From positions 1 through 27,445 of the IMG/VR virus record IMGVR_UViG_3300011261_000213: a stretch of 27,445 nt of DNA; one strand, written 5' to 3'. The notes beneath the pieces are model-generated. The model was not told where the DNA came from, made no database searches, and saw only the letters and a program-made list of their open reading frames with translations. The position numbers were made by a program, and so were the translations under genes. Every line of letters begins with the position of its first letter. Positions within the stretch are counted from its first letter, which is position 1. Below, in pieces: positions 4,016-13,906 of this stretch. The stretch is from a virus.

Positions 4016-4240
4016 TTAAATTATTTTAAGTAAATCTGGACGTAACTGTTCAAGCGTAAAGTCTGATATCCTACTTAACTTATAGGCTTGTAATAAAGGG
4101 ATTTGTACTACTCCTTTTTTCCATTTCCATAACTGTTGATACGAACAACTAAGTGCGTCACACAAGGAGTTATGGCTACCATGCTTAGTAATAATTTTAT
4201 TTATAATAGATATTGAGTTTTTAAATTGTTTTTCTGTCAT
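4016..4240 (-). CDS. Cro/YdaS-like helix-turn-helix repressor
   Basis: A 74-aa DNA-binding protein. Residues about 18-50 form the helix-turn-helix: NSLCDALSCSYQQLWKWKKG, where the second helix and the tryptophans match Cro/YdaS-type proteins. The ending FTLEQLRPDLLKI is the hallmark C-terminus of the YdaS/Cro-like family (a form of ...LRPDLY...). Such proteins bind operators between divergent early promoters and switch early transcription. The gene is divergent from the replication genes and sits just upstream of the leftward promoter at 3979-4007, the expected regulatory hub position. AGGA lies about 8 nt ahead of the ATG. No CI-type repressor is present, so this does not by itself show lysogeny. 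Confidence 0.8.
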   Translation of the reverse strand: MTEKQFKNSISIINKIITKHGSHNSLCDALSCSYQQLWKWKKGVVQIPLLQAYKLSRISDFTLEQLRPDLLKII

Positions 4241-4303
4241 TTGTTTAATCCTATATTAGGCAAAAGAATAAATTTTTCTCACATAAACACCAAGGGACAT
4301 GAT
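4241..4303. promoter_or_regulatory. Divergent control region between the Cro-like and O-like genes
   Basis: A 63-bp AT-rich spacer. It contains a perfect small palindrome, CCTA-TAT-TAGG (4250-4260), which is a plausible operator half-site pair for the adjacent HTH protein. A weak rightward promoter match is TTGTTT (4241-4246), 17 bp, AAGAAT. A minus-strand TAATAT (part of the palindrome) could serve as a -10 for the repressor gene. The ribosome binding site AAGGGA (4292-4297) serves the O-like gene. Confidence 0.4.
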
Positions 4304-5347
4304 ATGTTTTTTAACTTTAATAGTCAATTAGCTGATGAAGTTGGCGTACAAGGTGCAATCTTCATTGGGAAAATGCTGCAATTGGGTGAGGTTATTTTCT
4401 CACACTCGCTAGACAATCTATCCAATATATTTTCTTTCTGGTCAAAAAAACAGATTCGAAACATCCTCTCAAACCTGATTAAAGTATCAATTATTGAACA
4501 GGTTTATGATGGTTTAGGGAGCTACAAAAATATACAAACGTATAAAATAAATACTGAAAAACTACCTAGTGACCTCATCTTGAACGGACCAAAAGAGATA
4601 CAATCTATGCCCAAACAGGCACACGGTGACAATAATTTAAACATTACGGTGTGCTCAAAAGATACGATCTGTGCCCTTTTGGGCATACTGTCAAAATTTG
4701 ACCGTGCCCAAATGGGCACAGATGAACTAATATTCGAACAAATTGTGGTTACTTTGCTTTCAGTGCATATTTTGTACCCTTCGGTCATGAAGGTATATAG
4801 ATATACTAGAGATATTATATTAATATTAACTATGTTAATATTAATAAATATTAATAATAAACAAAAAGAAAAAAGAAAAGAAAAGAAAAAAGAAAAAGTT
4901 TTAAAAACCGCTAAGCCTGTGGATAACTCTATGTCAAAAATACCCGCATCACCTGAACTAATTTTTAACAGCAAAATGGTTCTTGCTGAGCTAAATAATC
5001 TTGTGTTTCCTGCGGTGAGGAGAAAGCCCTTTGTTGCCTCCTCCGATAACCTTGGCCCCATAATTGCACAACTGAAAAGCGGAGCCTCCATGGCAGATTG
5101 CTTGCATGTCGTGAAAAACAAATTCCAGCAGTGGCATACTAGTTCGCAGATGCAGGGTGCTTTGCAACCCAGCACACTGTTTGGGAAAAGATTCCCGAAC
5201 TATGTCGGAGAAAAACTACAGGAGAGTGCAAATGGAAAAAATACAAAACTTGATCAATCAACGGCCTCATCAAGAGCTGCCGAAAATTTATCAGGAATCT
5301 CGGACGCGATCGATCGAGCTCGTGAAAAATACGGAGACTGCAGCTAA
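4304..5347 (+). CDS. O-like phage replication initiator
   Basis: I chose ATG 4304 because AAGGGA lies six bases upstream. The longer frame starts at a TTG inside the divergent gene. The 347-aa product has an N-terminal winged-helix domain (about residues 5-95) with FSFWSKKQIRNILSNLIK and TYKINTEKL, typical of phage replication initiators. The C-terminal domain (about 215-305) runs from MVLAELNN through LQPSTLFGKRFPNYVGE and matches the conserved phage replication C-terminal (Phg_2220_C-type) pattern. Between them lies a low-complexity segment with hydrophobic and Lys/Glu-rich runs, encoded by the iterons and AT-rich DNA of the origin. As with lambda O, the protein would bind these iterons and recruit a helicase loader. 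The last 116 bp overlap the next gene. Confidence 0.82.
   Translation: MFFNFNSQLADEVGVQGAIFIGKMLQLGEVIFSHSLDNLSNIFSFWSKKQIRNILSNLIKVSIIEQVYDGLGSYKNIQTYKINTEKLPSDLILNGPKEIQSMPKQAHGDNNLNITVCSKDTICALLGILSKFDRAQMGTDELIFEQIVVTLLSVHILYPSVMKVYRYTRDIILILTMLILININNKQKEKRKEKKKEKVLKTAKPVDNSMSKIPASPELIFNSKMVLAELNNLVFPAVRRKPFVASSDNLGPIIAQLKSGASMADCLHVVKNKFQQWHTSSQMQGALQPSTLFGKRFPNYVGEKLQESANGKNTKLDQSTASSRAAENLSGISDAIDRAREKYGDCS
4606..4898 (+). other. Putative replication origin (iterons plus AT-rich unwinding element) inside the initiator gene
   Basis: There are three imperfect palindromic 18-mers. Site 1 is TATGCCCAAACAGGCACA (4606-4623). Site 2 is TGTGCCCTTTTGGGCATA (4670-4687), which matches the inverted site 1 at 16/18 positions. 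Site 3 is CGTGCCCAAATGGGCACA (4703-4720). The centres are 64 and 33 bp apart, close to whole helical turns. Downstream, 4792-4860 is almost pure A/T with a 10-bp palindrome, TTAATATTAA, twice (4820-4829, 4835-4844). This is followed by a purine-only strand to about 4898. Iterons, then an AT-rich stretch, then strand-asymmetric DNA within the O gene is the lambda ori layout. Confidence 0.75.
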
Positions 5348-7357: not shown

Positions 7358-7492
7358 CTAAAACGGTTCGTGATCAATAGATGACACAGCTAACTCATAA
7401 ACTGAGCTATCATAACGGTTCTTTACTTCTTCAATAGATGTTTGAATATCCTCAATACACATTTTTATTTCTATCTCTAAATTAGTAGTCAC
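7358..7492 (-). CDS. Small 44-aa protein downstream of the antitoxin gene (GTG start)
   Basis: A GTG start at 7492 is preceded by GGAG on the minus strand and overlaps the end of the Phd/YefM-like gene by 11 bp. The product reads MTTNLEIEIKMCIEDIQTSI and ends in a short acidic tail (SSIDHEPF). It is in the usual position of a toxin partner but is far too short for Doc or RelE and has no toxin motif. Confidence 0.45.
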   Translation of the reverse strand: MTTNLEIEIKMCIEDIQTSIEEVKNRYDSSVYELAVSSIDHEPF

Positions 7493-7694
7493 AGTTATTC
7501 TCCTTTTTGAATTTACGCAATTCTTTAATATCACCCAATTTCTCCAGCATATCGCAGTATCTTACCGCAGATATAACGACAGCTAAAGGCTGCTCACGTC
7601 TCGTGATGACTGATATCTTGTCGCCATAAAATGCCTCGTTTACTAAAGTTGCGAAATTAGATCGCGCGTCTACTGTTGTATAAGTGTTTCTCAT
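7482..7694 (-). CDS. Phd/YefM-family antitoxin, without a recognisable toxin partner
   Basis: A 70-aa product with the classic N-terminal Phd/YefM fold: TTVDARSNFATLVNEAFYGD followed by ISVITRREQPLAVVISA. This is the DNA-binding/dimerising half, with the 'conflict with R.G.P.AVVIS' strand pattern. The C-terminus (CDMLEKLGDIKELRKFKKE) would be the toxin-neutralising helix. Family members repress their own promoter and block Doc- or RelE-type toxins. Here the downstream genes encode 44- and 64-aa proteins with no toxin signature. The protein may therefore neutralise a host toxin or act only as a repressor; operator-like palindromes lie at the operon promoter. Confidence 0.85.
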   Translation of the reverse strand: MRNTYTTVDARSNFATLVNEAFYGDKISVITRREQPLAVVISAVRYCDMLEKLGDIKELRKFKKENNCDY

Positions 7695-7882: not shown

Positions 7883-7915
7883 TAGTCACAATTGACTATG
7901 TACCTAGTGTACATA
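7883..7915. promoter_or_regulatory. Operator-like palindromes over the leftward promoter
   Basis: There are two adjacent inverted repeats. TATGTAC-CTAGT-GTACATA (7897-7915) covers the -10 of the leftward promoter, and TAGTCA-CAAT-TGACTA (7883-7898) lies just downstream of it. Placement over the -10 and early transcript suggests repression. The operon's own Phd/YefM-like protein, or the Cro-like protein, are candidates. Confidence 0.55.
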
Positions 7916-7934
7916 CAGTAATTAAACCTGTCAA
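7906..7934 (-). promoter_or_regulatory. Strong sigma70-type leftward promoter
   Basis: On the minus strand: TTGACA (7934-7929), 17 bp, TACACT (7911-7906). It drives the four-gene operon 7862-7139 that contains the antitoxin. The -10 lies within a perfect palindrome. Confidence 0.75.
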
Positions 7935-7978
7935 GGGCTTATTAGCTAAAACATACTTAGCTTTTATAAGGATAAAGC

Positions 7979-8007
7979 TTGACTTTTATAGATAACTTTA
8001 CTATATT
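7979..8007 (+). promoter_or_regulatory. Strong sigma70-type rightward (late) promoter
   Basis: TTGACT (7979-7984), 17 bp, TATATT (8002-8007). It is the only clear strong rightward promoter ahead of the long plus-strand run from 8098 to the window end, so it is the natural late promoter. It is back to back with the leftward promoter at 7906-7934, and the predicted start is near 8014. Confidence 0.72.
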
Positions 8008-8015
8008 TATATGAG

Positions 8016-8071
8016 CGCACGTAAATCGTAGGAAAATCGATGTGACAACTTTAATGGCCCTACGTTGTGCG
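8016..8071 (+). promoter_or_regulatory. Structured leader hairpin at the start of the late transcript
   Basis: CGCAC (8016-8020) pairs with GTGCG (8067-8071), and CGTAGG (8027-8032) pairs with CCTACG (8059-8064). This forms a two-segment stem that starts within a few bases of the predicted transcript start. A terminator is unlikely because no T run follows. A leader structure in this place could act in antitermination or mRNA protection. Confidence 0.5.
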
Positions 8072-8097
8072 TACTTTTAAATTGATGAGGTGTTTTT

Positions 8098-8307
8098 ATG
8101 TCAGTTTTACCAGCGTTGCTTTTTGTTTTGTTTTTGGCGCTTAAGTTAACAGGTATTATAGCGTGGTCATGGATTTGGATAACTGCCCCACTTTGGGGTT
8201 CATTGGTTGGAATTGTATTATTTATGATAGTTATTCCATTGTCGTTTGTTTTAGTGGCTGCGGTACCTGTGACTATTATGGCGATTGTAAGCTATTTTAA
8301 GAAATGA
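8098..8307 (+). CDS. Small multi-span membrane protein (Fragile-X-F-type phage annotation)
   Basis: A 69-aa, almost entirely hydrophobic protein with GAGG 7 bases upstream. Segments at about residues 4-22 and 29-63 (two or three spans) contain LKLTGIIAWSWIWITAPLWG, a motif shared by small phage and bacterial proteins annotated as transmembrane Fragile-X-F protein. It ends in a short basic tail (YFKK). First gene of the late transcript. A holin-like role is possible given the absence of other clear lysis genes, but it is unproven. Confidence 0.7.
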   Translation: MSVLPALLFVLFLALKLTGIIAWSWIWITAPLWGSLVGIVLFMIVIPLSFVLVAAVPVTIMAIVSYFKK

Positions 8308-8312
8308 GATTT

Positions 8313-8388
8313 TCCCCAGTAGCTCAGTTGGTAGAGAGAACGACTGTTAATCGTTACGTCGGTGGTTCGAGTCCATCCTGGGGAGCCA
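8313..8388 (+). tRNA. tRNA-Asn (GTT)
   Basis: A complete 76-nt cloverleaf. The acceptor stem TCCCCAG/CTGGGGA is perfect, the anticodon stem AACGA/TCGTT encloses loop CTGTTAA with anticodon GTT at 8346-8348, the T arm is GGTGG-TTCGAGT-CCATC, the discriminator is G, and the 3' CCA is encoded (8386-8388). One mismatch (G-A) occurs in the D stem. It lies five bases after a membrane-protein gene within the late operon and is cut from the same transcript. It may boost Asn codon reading, since the structural proteins are Asn-rich. Confidence 0.96.
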
Positions 8389-8469
8389 AATTTAACAGGT
8401 GCAAACGTGAGTATAAGTGATACAATACATCTGGACTGATCAGAATAAATGCAGAATTAAGGAGCTATT

Positions 8470-8919
8470 ATGATAGTTAAAATTAAAGAGAGAGTTGAAC
8501 CTTATTACAAGGTAGGCGATATCTTATTTGATGATATTAAAAGGGAAAGTTTAATTATAACCAGCTTAACCAGATCAGGAGAAAAAGGGAAAGGGGTAAA
8601 TTTTTATAACTTTCTTCAATTTGATGGTGATGAAGTTACATATTACCAACTAAAACCCTTAGATGATCTTCGCTATATAGTAAAACAGCCATCACCTTTA
8701 ACTTTATATTCTGATTATTATCCGATCTTTAAGGCTGAATGCGGTTGCAATTGTAGTGGCGATCTTATTTATATTAGCATCGGCAATTATGATTCTGTTC
8801 TTATTGTAGACTCTCCGCATAGCCAATATCCAGGCATACCTTACCTCGATAATTGGGATGCTATAGATGATTTAACAATTGTTTCGTTTAAAGGAACTGT
8901 AGAGTTAAGTAACGAATGA
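8470..8919 (+). CDS. Hypothetical 149-aa protein
   Basis: The ATG has AAGGAG upstream. The first 70 residues look like a small beta-rich module (YYKVGDILFDD... SLIITSLTRSGEKG). The second half holds a CGCNC cysteine cluster (about residue 94) and ends in acidic strands (IVSFKGTVELSNE). No signal peptide. Not recognised. It lies between the tRNA and the DUF5681 gene in the late operon. Confidence 0.65.
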   Translation: MIVKIKERVEPYYKVGDILFDDIKRESLIITSLTRSGEKGKGVNFYNFLQFDGDEVTYYQLKPLDDLRYIVKQPSPLTLYSDYYPIFKAECGCNCSGDLIYISIGNYDSVLIVDSPHSQYPGIPYLDNWDAIDDLTIVSFKGTVELSNE

Positions 8920-8928
8920 GGTTTTATA

Positions 8929-9390
8929 ATGAGTGATAAAAAAATAATTGAAGAGAAAAAACCACTTAAAAAGAACGCTCACCTTTTTAAAAAAGGAACG
9001 TCGGGCAACCCAGCTGGAAGAAAGCCTGGCGTAGAAGACAAACGCACTAAGTATCGTAAGCTTATGCAGAATCATGCTGATGAACTTGTTAAGAAGTGTT
9101 TGTCTGAGGCTTTGGCAGGTGATAAAGTGATGCTTAAAGTTTGCATTGATAAGCTTCTACCTAACGCCAAGAGTGAGCGTATAGTAAGTGGTGTTATAAA
9201 GAACCTAGATAAAGATGATATTAAGAGTCTCCAAGAGGCTAGTAAGTCTGTAGTTAACGCTGTGAGTAAAGATGATATTACACCCGATCAAGCAAAGAGC
9301 TGTATGGACGTGCTAGACAGTCATGCTAAAATGATAGATCGTACAGAGATTATAGAGCGTCTGGAGAGGATAGAGGGCAAATTGAAATGA
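8929..9390 (+). CDS. DUF5681-containing protein, possible small terminase subunit
   Basis: A 153-aa product. Residues about 20-34 read FKKGTSGNPAGRKPG, the diagnostic DUF5681 motif found in phage proteins that often sit near terminases. A Lys-rich N-terminus precedes it. The C-terminal half is helical (DDIKSLQEASKSVVNAV, then EIIERLERIEGKL), suitable for oligomerisation. A DNA-recognition role in packaging is plausible from context, although the large terminase is 3 kb further on. Overlaps the next gene by 4 bp. Confidence 0.65.
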   Translation: MSDKKIIEEKKPLKKNAHLFKKGTSGNPAGRKPGVEDKRTKYRKLMQNHADELVKKCLSEALAGDKVMLKVCIDKLLPNAKSERIVSGVIKNLDKDDIKSLQEASKSVVNAVSKDDITPDQAKSCMDVLDSHAKMIDRTEIIERLERIEGKLK

Positions 9391-9554
9391 AAGACAAATA
9401 TTATTGCTTAAGTTTAATTATCTTAAGTATAGCTATTATACTCTCAAGTATCGAGATAAACATACTTGAAAAGAAAGTTACAGATGCTCAGATTGATGCA
9501 AATAATAATACTATAACGCTATCTCATTGCGCGTTCCTTTGGAGAAAATTATGA
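9387..9554 (+). CDS. Small single-span membrane protein (55 aa)
   Basis: Starts in a 4-bp ATGA overlap with the DUF5681 gene. Residues 7-24 (CLSLIILSIAIILSSIEI) are a membrane segment, followed by a short charged helix (NILEKKVTDAQIDANN). The N-terminal anchor with periplasmic coiled coil resembles a very short Rz-like inner-membrane spanin or another lysis accessory. It has no Cys lipobox. The tight overlap with the next membrane protein suggests a pair. Confidence 0.55.
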   Translation: MKDKYYCLSLIILSIAIILSSIEINILEKKVTDAQIDANNNTITLSHCAFLWRKL

Positions 9555-9661
9555 TAGAATGGTTAAGGAATAAGGTAATTGATTTCACATGCTGGTCATG
9601 TGCAGTTGCCGTTGTAATTGTGATTTTAGGAATTTTGTATTTTATTATTAGGTTAGTTTAA
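9551..9661 (+). CDS. Tiny membrane protein (36 aa)
   Basis: ATG 9551 with GGAG upstream, overlapping the previous stop by 4 bp and the next start by 1 bp (TAATG). The C-terminal half is one hydrophobic span (AVAVVIVILGILYFIIRLV). Both neighbours are coupled to it, so it is probably translated. It could be a holin or antiholin-type peptide. Confidence 0.55.
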   Translation: MIEWLRNKVIDFTCWSCAVAVVIVILGILYFIIRLV

Positions 9662-9900
9662 TGACAATAACTAAAGAACAAGCTGCATTTCACTCTGAGG
9701 ATCTTGTTGTTCTTGCGGGGTTTCTTGAGAAAGATATTGATAGCTTTCCAAGTGGTAGTCTTTATCTGATAGAGGCTTTAATAGGTAATTTAACACAGTC
9801 TCTTTCAGATATTTGCGGCGATATAAAGTTAAAGTACTTTGAGTTAGATGACATTTTACATATTGTTTCTGAGGAGCTGCGTACAAGGGAAGGTAAATGA
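9661..9900 (+). CDS. Hypothetical 79-aa protein
   Basis: The start is coupled to the previous stop (TAATG). The product is acidic and helical (AAFHSEDLVVLAGFLEKDI, YLIEALIGNLTQSLSDIC) and ends RTREGK. No known domain. Part of the run of small coupled genes 8929-10091. Confidence 0.6.
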   Translation: MTITKEQAAFHSEDLVVLAGFLEKDIDSFPSGSLYLIEALIGNLTQSLSDICGDIKLKYFELDDILHIVSEELRTREGK

Positions 9901-10091
9901 TAGTAACTAAAAAATTCACAAACCAAATGCAAATGCTATCAGCTCAGGAAAAGCTCTTACTGCTAACTAAACTTGCTAAACAGTTGAGATGCAAGGTTAA
10001 AAACTGTAAGATTGACAATGATAAGAATACTTTCTCTTACGAGGTTGAGGGTAGGGAGTTGGATGTTGAGACTTTTAGGAATGGGTTATGA
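9897..10091 (+). CDS. Hypothetical 64-aa protein
   Basis: The start overlaps the previous stop by 4 bp (ATGA). The product is basic (MIVTKKFTNQMQMLSAQEKL, LRCKVKNCKIDN) and contains a pair of cysteines. It ends three bases before a highly structured non-coding element. Function unknown. Confidence 0.6.
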   Translation: MIVTKKFTNQMQMLSAQEKLLLLTKLAKQLRCKVKNCKIDNDKNTFSYEVEGRELDVETFRNGL

Positions 10092-10093
10092 AA

Positions 10094-10201
10094 GAGTGCT
10101 GTAAAACATAACATTTAGCATGTTATGTGTGGGGTTAAGGAGACGGGAGACCTGGCGCGTCCAGCGTCCCGTCAACGAGTATAACCCCACTTGCCGCACT
10201 T
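10094..10201 (+). ncRNA. Putative structured RNA with a three-way junction (no known family recognised)
   Basis: Four nested or adjacent stems cover a 108-nt gene-free stretch that is locally much richer in G+C than its surroundings. The outer stem is AGTGC/GCACT (10095-10099 / 10196-10200, plus one G-U pair). The first arm is ACATAACA/TGTTATGT with a 7-nt loop (10106-10128). The second arm is GTGGGGTTA/TAACCCCAC (10129-10137 / 10182-10190), 9 bp, directly abutting the first. Inside it are GACGGGA/TCCCGTC (10142-10148 / 10167-10173) and CTGG/CCAG (10152-10155 / 10161-10164). No T run follows, so it is not a simple terminator, and it is not a tRNA. It could instead be a DNA recognition site such as a packaging or recombination site. 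Confidence 0.6.
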
Positions 10202-10223
10202 CATATGATATTGATACTTTATA

Positions 10224-11174
10224 ATGGATGAAACTTATAATATGAGCTACGAATACCAACCATTTAATAACAATTTCACAGCAAACGGGTACACCTTAAT
10301 TCAAGGGGTAAGACAAAAAATAAACTCTTTTGATGTTTATATTGCTGGTACTTTTAGCAGAGATGGGAAACAGTTTGGAGCGTTATATACTGGACCGTTG
10401 TCAGGAAATGGGGATAATGGAGATTGGGAACTATTTGGTTATAAAGATAGAGATGAGGTAGTACATTTAGATACATCCTTCTATGGGCCAAATAATCTAG
10501 GAGATGGTGGAGTTGAGGTTGTAGGGTCTTATGTTAAAGAAGGTAGAACTGTTGGCTTATTAGTTAGTATAGTAGATGGCGTCAAGGTTTGGAAAACTTT
10601 AGACCCGACTAATGGAGACGCAAAAAGGACATTTGTCCACAGTATAATGGGGCATCTAGCGGTTGGAAATTACGACCTAGGCGCTCATATATACTCTTTT
10701 ATATATCATAAGAAAACCGATGAATTTATTCCGTTTCTTGTGGAAGGTTCTAGCGAAACCACACTATATGGTATCTGGTGTAATTCCGAGAATCGATATA
10801 CTGTTTGTGGTGGTTGTATAATTAATAAAAAAGTTATGGGGTTTGTTTCTGATATTGATGAAGTCGGAGATGCCCTAGACACTGTTACTATTGATGATGG
10901 TTGCTCTCATATTCAAGGTATAACACCAAATGGTTTAGGCGGTTACTATTTAGCTATTAATGAGATAAATGGTAAGTGTCGTATAGGTAATATGAATCGC
11001 GGAGATAATAGCTATTTAAGGTATGGTGGCTCTATAGAGCTAAACAGTTATCCATCACCAATAGCGTCGAAGATGAGCGCAAACACAATTATAGGCGATA
11101 GTGTTTTGGGTATCTATGAGGTTAATATAGGTAGTCGAACTGTTCCTATTTCCTATTTATGTGGGGCGCTATGA
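10224..11174 (+). CDS. Beta-propeller-like accessory protein (possible moron or cargo)
   Basis: A 316-aa protein with repeated short beta-sheet blocks. Recurrent elements include DVYIAGTFSRDGKQFGALYTG, IMGHLAVGNYDLGAHIYSF, LYGIWCNSENRYTVCGG and HIQGITPNGLGGYYLAINE. This 'x-YGIW-x-N-x-x-x-YT-x-GG' type is reminiscent of uncharacterised bacterial proteins with propeller-like repeats. It has no signal peptide and no membrane span. The start is uncertain: ATG 10224 and ATG 10242 both lack a strong ribosome binding site. It is not part of any standard capsid or tail gene set, and it sits between the structured RNA and the packaging genes. That suggests a moron, virion decoration or host-interaction protein. 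Confidence 0.65.
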   Translation: MDETYNMSYEYQPFNNNFTANGYTLIQGVRQKINSFDVYIAGTFSRDGKQFGALYTGPLSGNGDNGDWELFGYKDRDEVVHLDTSFYGPNNLGDGGVEVVGSYVKEGRTVGLLVSIVDGVKVWKTLDPTNGDAKRTFVHSIMGHLAVGNYDLGAHIYSFIYHKKTDEFIPFLVEGSSETTLYGIWCNSENRYTVCGGCIINKKVMGFVSDIDEVGDALDTVTIDDGCSHIQGITPNGLGGYYLAINEINGKCRIGNMNRGDNSYLRYGGSIELNSYPSPIASKMSANTIIGDSVLGIYEVNIGSRTVPISYLCGAL

Positions 11175-11356
11175 CATTATTTATAACTTTTATTGTAACA
11201 TTTGTTGGATTGGCGATTAATGAGATTGACAACTCCAATAAAGAACCACTAACACATAGAATATGTAATCACATTAGGAAACATAACAACCAATTTATAT
11301 ATTCTATTGATACAACAACCTCAGCAGTATCTACAAAAAATATATTTAATAAATAA
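11171..11356 (+). CDS. Small N-terminally membrane-anchored protein (61 aa)
   Basis: ATG 11171 forms an ATGA overlap with the preceding gene and has GGGG just upstream; an ATG four codons earlier is less likely. Residues 2-17 (TLFITFIVTFVGLAIN) form a hydrophobic span or uncleaved signal. The rest is polar (HRICNHIRKHNNQFIYSID). Function unknown. Confidence 0.5.
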   Translation: MTLFITFIVTFVGLAINEIDNSNKEPLTHRICNHIRKHNNQFIYSIDTTTSAVSTKNIFNK

Positions 11357-11367
11357 GGTCTAATAAT

Positions 11368-11571
11368 ATGTGTAGATTTTGCGTCGCATTCTGGTTAATG
11401 TTTATGGGAATATGCGCTTTGATATTTTTCGTATCAAATTCATATAAAGAGATCACTAAGGAGCAATCAACCCCTTTAACATTTCATGAATCACCTTCGT
11501 CAACTGCTGTGTCGGATGATCAAGTAAATATAATAACATTAGCAGAATTGGCCCCAGCACATAACGTTTAG
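11368..11571 (+). CDS. Small membrane protein (67 aa), competing with an antisense frame
   Basis: The N-terminal half is a hydrophobic segment (FWLMFMGICALIFFVSN) and the C-terminal half is Ser/Thr-rich and polar. AGG lies upstream at a long spacing. The last third overlaps a minus-strand frame (11456-11653) that also looks protein-like. At most one may be real. Gene direction of the operon favours this one. Confidence 0.42.
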   Translation: MCRFCVAFWLMFMGICALIFFVSNSYKEITKEQSTPLTFHESPSSTAVSDDQVNIITLAELAPAHNV

Positions 11572-11653
11572 TTAATACTTTAAAGAATATCTTTAACTCG
11601 TCTAAATCTTTATTATCATTTTTTATTCTTTTACCTTGACATTTCTTGCTCAT
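11456..11653 (-). CDS. Possible antisense small membrane protein (65 aa)
   Basis: This minus-strand frame has a basic polar N-terminus (SKKCQGKRIKNDNKDLDEL) and one hydrophobic segment (YVLGPILLMLLYLLDHP), a natural-looking small membrane-protein layout. GAGAG lies about 9 nt ahead of ATG. It fills the otherwise empty 11572-11653. No good promoter was found upstream, and it opposes the late operon, so it is uncertain. A comparable lone minus-strand membrane gene exists at 25096-25248. Confidence 0.38.
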   Translation of the reverse strand: MSKKCQGKRIKNDNKDLDELKIFFKVLTKRYVLGPILLMLLYLLDHPTQQLTKVIHEMLKGLIAP

Positions 11654-11670
11654 TTTAATATTCTCTCTAT

Positions 11671-12351
11671 ATGAGTTGCTATATTAGTCAGTATTTACAA
11701 TCAGAGTATGCGAAAGTTCATATTAGCGCAGGTATTATTGTCTCCTCTAATCAGCTATACCGTACTATTGGCATTATTAATGCAGTTGAGCAGGTTAAGC
11801 CTTTCGATAGGATCAATAGCTATACCGATGTGGTCTGCTTTGTCCTAGGCGAAGGTCCTCAACCCACTGTTTCAACTGCTTTGGCAGCAGTATATCCAGA
11901 TTGGTTCATATATTCATATGATAAACAACTACAAAAGACCTATTTGAAATCAAATATTGTCTCTACATATCCAAACTTTATGACTATTGATTGCTCACTT
12001 AAGAGCTGGCGATCGGGTGAAGATCACGGATTAACGTTTAATACAAAAGGTAATCAAGCCTTTAATGCCAAGAATGTTGTCATCGTGGCTTTTGATTATT
12101 TCAATGAAATACCTCTTATATTCAAAGGCATAGACCCTCTTAATATCAATATGTTTTCGCTTCAATCTAAAGCTAAAAAAATAAAGGATTTAGATGAGAT
12201 GATAACCAATAAATATACTGATAAAAACATAAAAACAAAAGAGAATGTATTAAAGTTTTGGAATTTTAAAAGATTGTATAAAATATCTGAATCAAACCAG
12301 AAAAGATGGGTATTCCATTTAAATAAGGGGGAATATGAGGAATCTGAGTAA
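11671..12351 (+). CDS. Hypothetical 226-aa protein with Rossmann-like strand pattern
   Basis: The region VVCFVLGEGPQPTVSTALAA followed by a strand ending WFIYSYD resembles a Rossmann first strand, glycine loop and an acidic residue at the end of strand 2, as in nucleotide- or SAM-binding proteins. Later hydrophobic strands (FMTIDCS, NVVIVAFDYF) fit such a fold. The C-terminal 70 residues are basic and helical. No methyltransferase catalytic motif is visible, so a role is not assigned. The start at ATG 11671 has a weak ribosome binding site. It overlaps the terminase start by 17 bp, so it is expressed with packaging genes. Confidence 0.6.
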   Translation: MSCYISQYLQSEYAKVHISAGIIVSSNQLYRTIGIINAVEQVKPFDRINSYTDVVCFVLGEGPQPTVSTALAAVYPDWFIYSYDKQLQKTYLKSNIVSTYPNFMTIDCSLKSWRSGEDHGLTFNTKGNQAFNAKNVVIVAFDYFNEIPLIFKGIDPLNINMFSLQSKAKKIKDLDEMITNKYTDKNIKTKENVLKFWNFKRLYKISESNQKRWVFHLNKGEYEESE

Positions 12352-13906
12352 ACGTATTTCTGTTGCAGAGGTTAAAGCTGAGGATTTTTATTGTAGCTCA
12401 TCTGTAGACCTACCAAATGCTGAGGATCTTTTAAATGATTTCCTACAGTTTACTCAGTATTTCTATCGCATTAGAACAGGAAGAGACTTTGTTATTTCAA
12501 CGCCGCCATCCAGGAAATCGCATCATAGAATCATAGCTGATAAATTCACAGATATATATGATAGCAAATGTAATAGATCACTAATCCATTGTCCTCCTCG
12601 TTACGGAAAAACAGAAATGATGATTCACTTCATTGCGTGGTCATTGGCAAAATACCCAGACTCTCAGTATATTTATATATCTTATGCATTACGATTAGCC
12701 GCCAAACAAACAGGTGTAATTAGACAGATAGTTGAGCTACCTCAATATAAAGCTATATTTGGGGTGGAAACTAGAAAGGATAGCCGAGCTAAAGATTCGT
12801 TTGAAACAACTGCTGGTGGCGCTGTTTTTGCATCTGGATCAGGTGGCACTATCACTGGGTATGGTGCTGGTATTGCAAATGAGTTGCGGTGGGGTGGTTG
12901 TATTGCGATAGATGATATTCATAAACCATCGGAAGTAACTAGCGATACAATTAGAGAGAGTGAGGTAGAGTGGTATATAGAAACTGCTCAATCAAGGGTT
13001 AATGGCCCTAGAACTCCTATAATTGGTATGGGGCAAATACTCCACGAATCTGATTTATTTAGTCAATTAGCACAGGGATTAAGTGGGGAAAAGTGGGACG
13101 TTTTAAAGATAAAGGCGCTTGATTCGGCTGGCAGTGCGTTAGACCCATCGAAGCATACTAAGGAAGACTTGGATAGGATGGCAAAGACAATGCCGTACGT
13201 CTTTGCTTCTCAATACCAACAGACTCCACAGCCTGCTGGTGGTGGTATATTTAAGCGTGATTGGTTTGCTATTCTTGAAGATGAGCCTGATATGCTCGCT
13301 ACTTTCATCACTTCCGACACTGCTGAGACCGACAAGAACTACAATGACGCTACGGTATTTAGCTTTTGGGGATTATACAAGATCAAGCAAGCTGGAATAG
13401 AGACAGATATTTATGGCCTGCATTGGCTTGATTGCTTAGAGACCTGGGTTGAGCCTAAAGATTTAAAATCTACGTTTATGTCATTTTACGCTGATTGTAT
13501 GCGATATGGAGTAAAGCCAAAGATTGCGGCAATAGAAAAGAAATCCACTGGTGTAACCTTAGTTTCCATTCTTAAGTCTATGCAAGGTCTTCAAATTCAT
13601 GAGATTGAGAGAAATGCAAACAGCGGAAACAAGACAAGCAGATTCTTAGAATGTCAGCCACTAATAGCTTCGGGTCAGTTATCATTTACAGCTGGCAGTC
13701 ACCATATGCATAAATGTTTAGATCATATGTCAAAGATCACAGCAAATGATACACATAGGCGAGATGACATTGCAGATACGTGTGCAGATGGGATAAAATT
13801 AGGACTTATTGATAAATTTATACTCAATGTTAGTATAGAAAAAGAAGAGTCACCGGCGATCCCTGGGTATCAATCCTTTCACAAAGCAGGCCAAATAAAA
13901 TGGTAG
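12335..13906 (+). CDS. terL: Terminase large subunit (packaging ATPase-nuclease)
   Basis: The 523-aa product has an N-terminal ATPase: Walker A CPPRYGKTE (residues 86-94) and Walker B CIAIDDIH (189-196), with a preceding RKDSRAKDSFETTAGG adenine/sensor region. The C-terminal RNase H-like nuclease shows SDTAETDKN (Asp328), AAIEKKSTG (Glu401) and RRDDIADTCADG (475-486) as the expected three acidic positions. It pumps DNA into the procapsid and cuts it. AGGGGG precedes ATG 12335. It overlaps the portal gene by 7 bp. The gp2-type arrangement beside a P22-type portal suggests headful packaging, but this cannot be proved from the sequence. Confidence 0.95.
   Translation: MRNLSKRISVAEVKAEDFYCSSSVDLPNAEDLLNDFLQFTQYFYRIRTGRDFVISTPPSRKSHHRIIADKFTDIYDSKCNRSLIHCPPRYGKTEMMIHFIAWSLAKYPDSQYIYISYALRLAAKQTGVIRQIVELPQYKAIFGVETRKDSRAKDSFETTAGGAVFASGSGGTITGYGAGIANELRWGGCIAIDDIHKPSEVTSDTIRESEVEWYIETAQSRVNGPRTPIIGMGQILHESDLFSQLAQGLSGEKWDVLKIKALDSAGSALDPSKHTKEDLDRMAKTMPYVFASQYQQTPQPAGGGIFKRDWFAILEDEPDMLATFITSDTAETDKNYNDATVFSFWGLYKIKQAGIETDIYGLHWLDCLETWVEPKDLKSTFMSFYADCMRYGVKPKIAAIEKKSTGVTLVSILKSMQGLQIHEIERNANSGNKTSRFLECQPLIASGQLSFTAGSHHMHKCLDHMSKITANDTHRRDDIADTCADGIKLGLIDKFILNVSIEKEESPAIPGYQSFHKAGQIKW

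Follow-up and report, generated by a model that had tools for sequence, protein, structure and literature searches.

Within operons, the ratios between transcripts can be set by intergenic stem-loops (PMC4423207). For cis-acting structured RNA in phages, the nearest precedent is the put RNA of HK022, which consists of two neighbouring stem-loops in ~70 nt and lies downstream of early promoters (PMC9378689). Another structured phage RNA, the packaging RNA (pRNA), has been described as confined to phi29 and its relatives among the Bacillus phages (PMC11476376). The element described here resembles the stem-loops of the cip-cel operon of Clostridium cellulolyticum, a system of selective RNA processing and stabilisation, in being a stable, lineage-variable structure in an operon gene gap. 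However, it is a branched three-way junction and lies in a presumed phage late region. With put RNA it shares two neighbouring stem-loops in a phage RNA that would act in cis, but it is closed off by a further stem and one of its arms is longer, and put RNA follows early promoters. Like the phi29 pRNA, which has ~120 nt in its processed form, it forms a three-way junction; in contrast, its phage belongs to a different group having both small and large terminase genes, and the element is missing from the nearest relative and has no Rfam match.

The element lies in a window of 27,445 nucleotides (the whole stretch of viral DNA that was analysed), in the gap between two orphan genes of the same strand. 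The features of the region are as follows.

8929-9390, + strand: DUF5681 protein, probable small terminase subunit
9391-11455, + strand: accessory cassette of ~2 kb holding the element, missing from the closest relative (L002)
9897-10091, + strand: orphan 64-aa ORF, ending 2 nt 5' of the element
10094-10201, + strand: structured element, three-way junction in the computed fold; the same fold is possible on the opposite strand
10094-10104, + strand: 5' side of the closing stem P1 (GAGUGC, a 1-nt mismatch, GUAA), pairing with 10191-10201
10106-10128, + strand: hairpin P2, 9 bp (10106-10114 with 10120-10128), loop UUAGC
10129-10190, + strand: long arm P3/P4/P5 of the computed fold
10191-10201, + strand: 3' side of P1 in the computed fold
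10224-11174, + strand: orphan 316-aa ORF, starting 22 nt 3' of the element, with no Shine-Dalgarno match
12335-13906, + strand: large terminase subunit (phrog_38)

A run of tiny genes precedes the element and, besides the large terminase gene, portal, head and connector (head-closure) genes lie downstream of it. Judging from this gene order, the region is probably a single late transcript of a tailed phage, with the + strand transcribed. A sequence-only reading had called the element an unrecognised structured RNA inside the late operon; the structure was borne out and no Rfam family matched it, while transcription and the late operon are deduced from the gene order. The same reading had called the stretch gene-free, which is right for plausible genes; a 57-aa ORF on the minus strand (10086-10259) does span the element, but it showed no coding evidence. 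Neither flanking ORF had relatives in Pfam, PHROGs, phage records or viral contigs, and for the 316-aa ORF, NCBIfam and 140 Legionella-order genomes likewise gave no relative. An AlphaFold model of the latter was unusable (pLDDT 35). A 7-codon mini-ORF from 10088 (ATGA overlap) was considered and is within chance expectation.

We confirmed that the element folds as a stable three-armed RNA shape. On the + strand, the minimum free energy (MFE) of 10085-10215 (131 bases) was -49.6 kcal/mol, compared with -31.0 +/- 3.5 kcal/mol for dinucleotide shuffles (n = 200), none of which folded as well (z = -5.31). The element thus passed one of the refuting checks set by the sequence-only reading, a folding energy no better than that of shuffled controls. 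For the trimmed stretch 10090-10206, the MFE structure (-47.8 kcal/mol, z = -5.33) was identical to the centroid and contained all five stems proposed from the letters alone. P1 comprises 6 + 4 bp (10094-10099/10196-10201 and 10101-10104/10191-10194), P3 has 9 bp (10129-10137/10182-10190), P4 has 7 bp (10142-10148/10167-10173) and P5 has 4 bp (10152-10155/10161-10164); the internal loop between P3 and P4 carries AGGA (10138-10141). The sequence-only reading gave the 9-, 7- and 4-bp stems correctly, and its "8-bp" helix is the 9-bp P3. As it had noticed, two arms (P2 and P3) adjoin at 10128/10129. When the element was folded within 300 nt of sequence, the checked pairs had probabilities of 0.74-1.0, apart from the outermost G-U pair (0.44). 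The higher G+C content noted earlier was also evident: the element (52%, with 63% in the P3-P5 arm) is a GC-rich island in AT-rich surroundings (37% for the window). The minus strand of 10085-10215 was nearly as stable (MFE -48.5 kcal/mol, z = -5.73), and folding it as DNA gave the same arms. With the two strands about equal in stability, nothing proves that the element functions as RNA.

The z-score of the element ranked fourth in a scan of 684 windows, level with some coding stretches; the fold alone is therefore not extraordinary. It came tenth among 439 gene gaps taken from the present stretch and ~100 related loci, and first among those of the present stretch; some of the higher-ranking gaps consist of simple repeats or of long, plain hairpins. 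The gene gaps of the related loci hold other hairpins, which are dissimilar to the element. A strong fold in L036 was set aside, being located within a coding gene. In L040, an 18-bp hairpin forms part of a large multi-branched fold (4746-4895) directly 5' of a gene for a tRNA and that for the large terminase; this fold showed no likeness to the element. Genes for tRNAs upstream of the large terminase gene were seen in several related phages (L036 3424-3496 and 4072-4144; L040 4886-4957; L050 2814-2903 and 4276-4348), and the present window has a tRNA-Asn gene at 8313-8388.

Searches for known families did not assign the element. Rfam returned no family, EAR-type families and the phi29-type pRNA model included, and loose thresholds gave matches at chance level. 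The only tRNA found by ARAGORN and Rfam was that at 8313, with no tRNA or tmRNA at the element, in agreement with the earlier reading. That the element is not an ordinary terminator was likewise upheld: no U run follows a GC-rich hairpin in it, and 7900-12500 contained nothing resembling a terminator. Comparison of the element DNA with phages and plasmids gave nothing credible. The stem pattern GTGGGGTTA...TAACCCCAC matched 19 viral stretches, which were judged to be chance matches with unrelated insides and flanks, and the other stem patterns had no matches in viral and genome collections. A covariance model built from the element itself scored the element at 147 bits but had no further match in 95 terminase-linked related loci, 31 full virus records, 140 genomes of the Legionella order or, with stricter filters, 369 genomes of the class to which this order belongs. 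Since a model built from a single sequence is weak, and the collections may lack records very close to that of the window, these results do not prove that relatives are absent. A weak blastn hit in L053 coincides with the beginning of a different ORF and does not form this fold, and weak matches in Legionella-order genomes spanned 19-41 nt and, with 143 genomes searched, were of marginal significance. An integron attC site was rejected by direct reading, as the core-site letters do not fit.

The closest relative found was L002, with identities of 68% in the large terminase, 68% in the portal and 58% in the DUF5681 protein; the last of these, used as a query, retrieved no closer relative. The DUF5681 gene of L002 is immediately followed by the counterpart of a minus-strand ORF of the window (11456-11653), and the ~2 kb that separate these two genes in the window, including the element, are missing. 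The element is thus part of a set of accessory genes and does not go with those for packaging. The minus-strand ORF itself, which lies between the DUF5681 and large terminase genes and is opposite in orientation to the genes around it, is retained in L002 (45% identity). Relatives of the terminase were found in genome records of Legionella maceachernii (L113) and a Legionella MAG (L109). MAGs of other groups were also among them, and a Legionella-like host is therefore only a lead.

From these results, and by analogy with operon stem-loops, we tentatively favour the reading that the element is a lineage-specific intercistronic RNA structure in a probable late polycistronic mRNA, where it may act in cis to mark a boundary for processing or stability. 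It is a stable structure between co-oriented genes, as expected of an intergenic element of this type. The strong fold between two same-strand genes, the lack of a U tract, the location in a cassette absent from the closest relative, and the precedent of operon stem-loops that set transcript ratios all argue for a cis-acting boundary. The dissimilar hairpins in gene gaps of related loci also agree with it, since such variety is expected of changeable local mRNA elements. The element would be carried with the accessory genes in the late transcript, and its P1-P5 fold would separate the run of tiny genes from the 316-aa orphan gene. There it may serve as a block to exonucleases and as an entry point for an endonuclease, so that transcript levels would differ between the flanking genes. 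Three points count against a cis-acting boundary. First, the element has no homologue and thus offers no evidence of selection on pairing. Second, a hairpin that served only stability would not need the complexity of a three-way junction. Third, the opposite strand folds about as stably, so that the functional form need not be RNA. If functional, the element would be a further case of a phage tuning gene output within a late transcript by a built-in RNA structure, in this case one that adjoins an orphan gene.

The main alternative is that the element is an insertion, GC-rich and palindromic (resembling a MITE or REP, or a remnant of one), that lies in the gene gap by chance and has no function of its own. 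A DNA palindrome would fold equally strongly from both strands, as the element does, and both its base composition and its place in a variable cassette suit an insertion. A TATGA direct repeat on both sides (10087-10091 and near 10204-10208), noticed by direct reading and possibly due to chance, points the same way. However, the multiple copies typical of REP- or MITE-like sequences were not seen: the element is single in the window, and searches of phages, plasmids, viral contigs and genomes gave no further copy. We regard such an insertion as unlikely.

A trans-acting small RNA of ~110 nt, processed from the late transcript, is quite unlikely. Its ends would be paired in a compact closed fold, but terminator-like sites 3' of the element, an Rfam match and conservation were all lacking, and promoter-like matches nearby were at chance level.

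It is slightly more doubtful that the element controls the translation or transcription of its neighbours, either through re-initiation, with the fold placing the stop of the 64-aa ORF close to where the 316-aa ORF starts, or as a put- or EAR-like antiterminator acting on RNA polymerase. Most other genes here have a Shine-Dalgarno match, and its lack before the 316-aa ORF leaves room for a role of the element in translation of this gene; P1 also draws the two ends of the gap close to each other. However, the 316-aa ORF is not alone in this, as at least one more ORF here has no such match. The paired stem-loops of put RNA favour an antiterminator, while its shorter length and early location, and the lack of any EAR-type match, do not. 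Equally doubtful is an undescribed class of phage structured RNA, a cassette-borne three-way junction of ~108 nt that would act in trans or, in cis, on the late transcript that carries it.

The phage encodes a CsrA homologue (2223-2438, - strand; Pfam PF02599, above the cut-off), for which the element could be a decoy, and one ANGGA motif does lie at the P3/P4 internal loop; this is very improbable, as CsrB/RsmZ-type RNAs carry several loop GGA motifs above chance, while the element has two against 2.4 expected, one of them inside stem P4. The packaging RNA or DNA packaging site proposed by the sequence-only reading, which would have mattered more, is barely credible: the element is 2.1 kb 5' of the large terminase gene, but L002 has the packaging genes without it and pRNA is described as specific to phi29 and its Bacillus relatives, and we therefore set the idea aside.

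Several other features of the window were observed. Besides the CsrA homologue, which has weak CsrA-like matches in the related loci L073 and L102, a possible Phd/YefM-type antitoxin is encoded at 7482-7694 (- strand), slightly under the Pfam cut-off. The strongest fold of the scan was at 4570-4790 (+ strand), inside a replication-type gene (4226-5347, Phg_2220_C). This stretch contains repeated palindromes such as GTGCCCAAATGGGCAC and looks like an iteron-type replication origin within a gene, as in lambda O.
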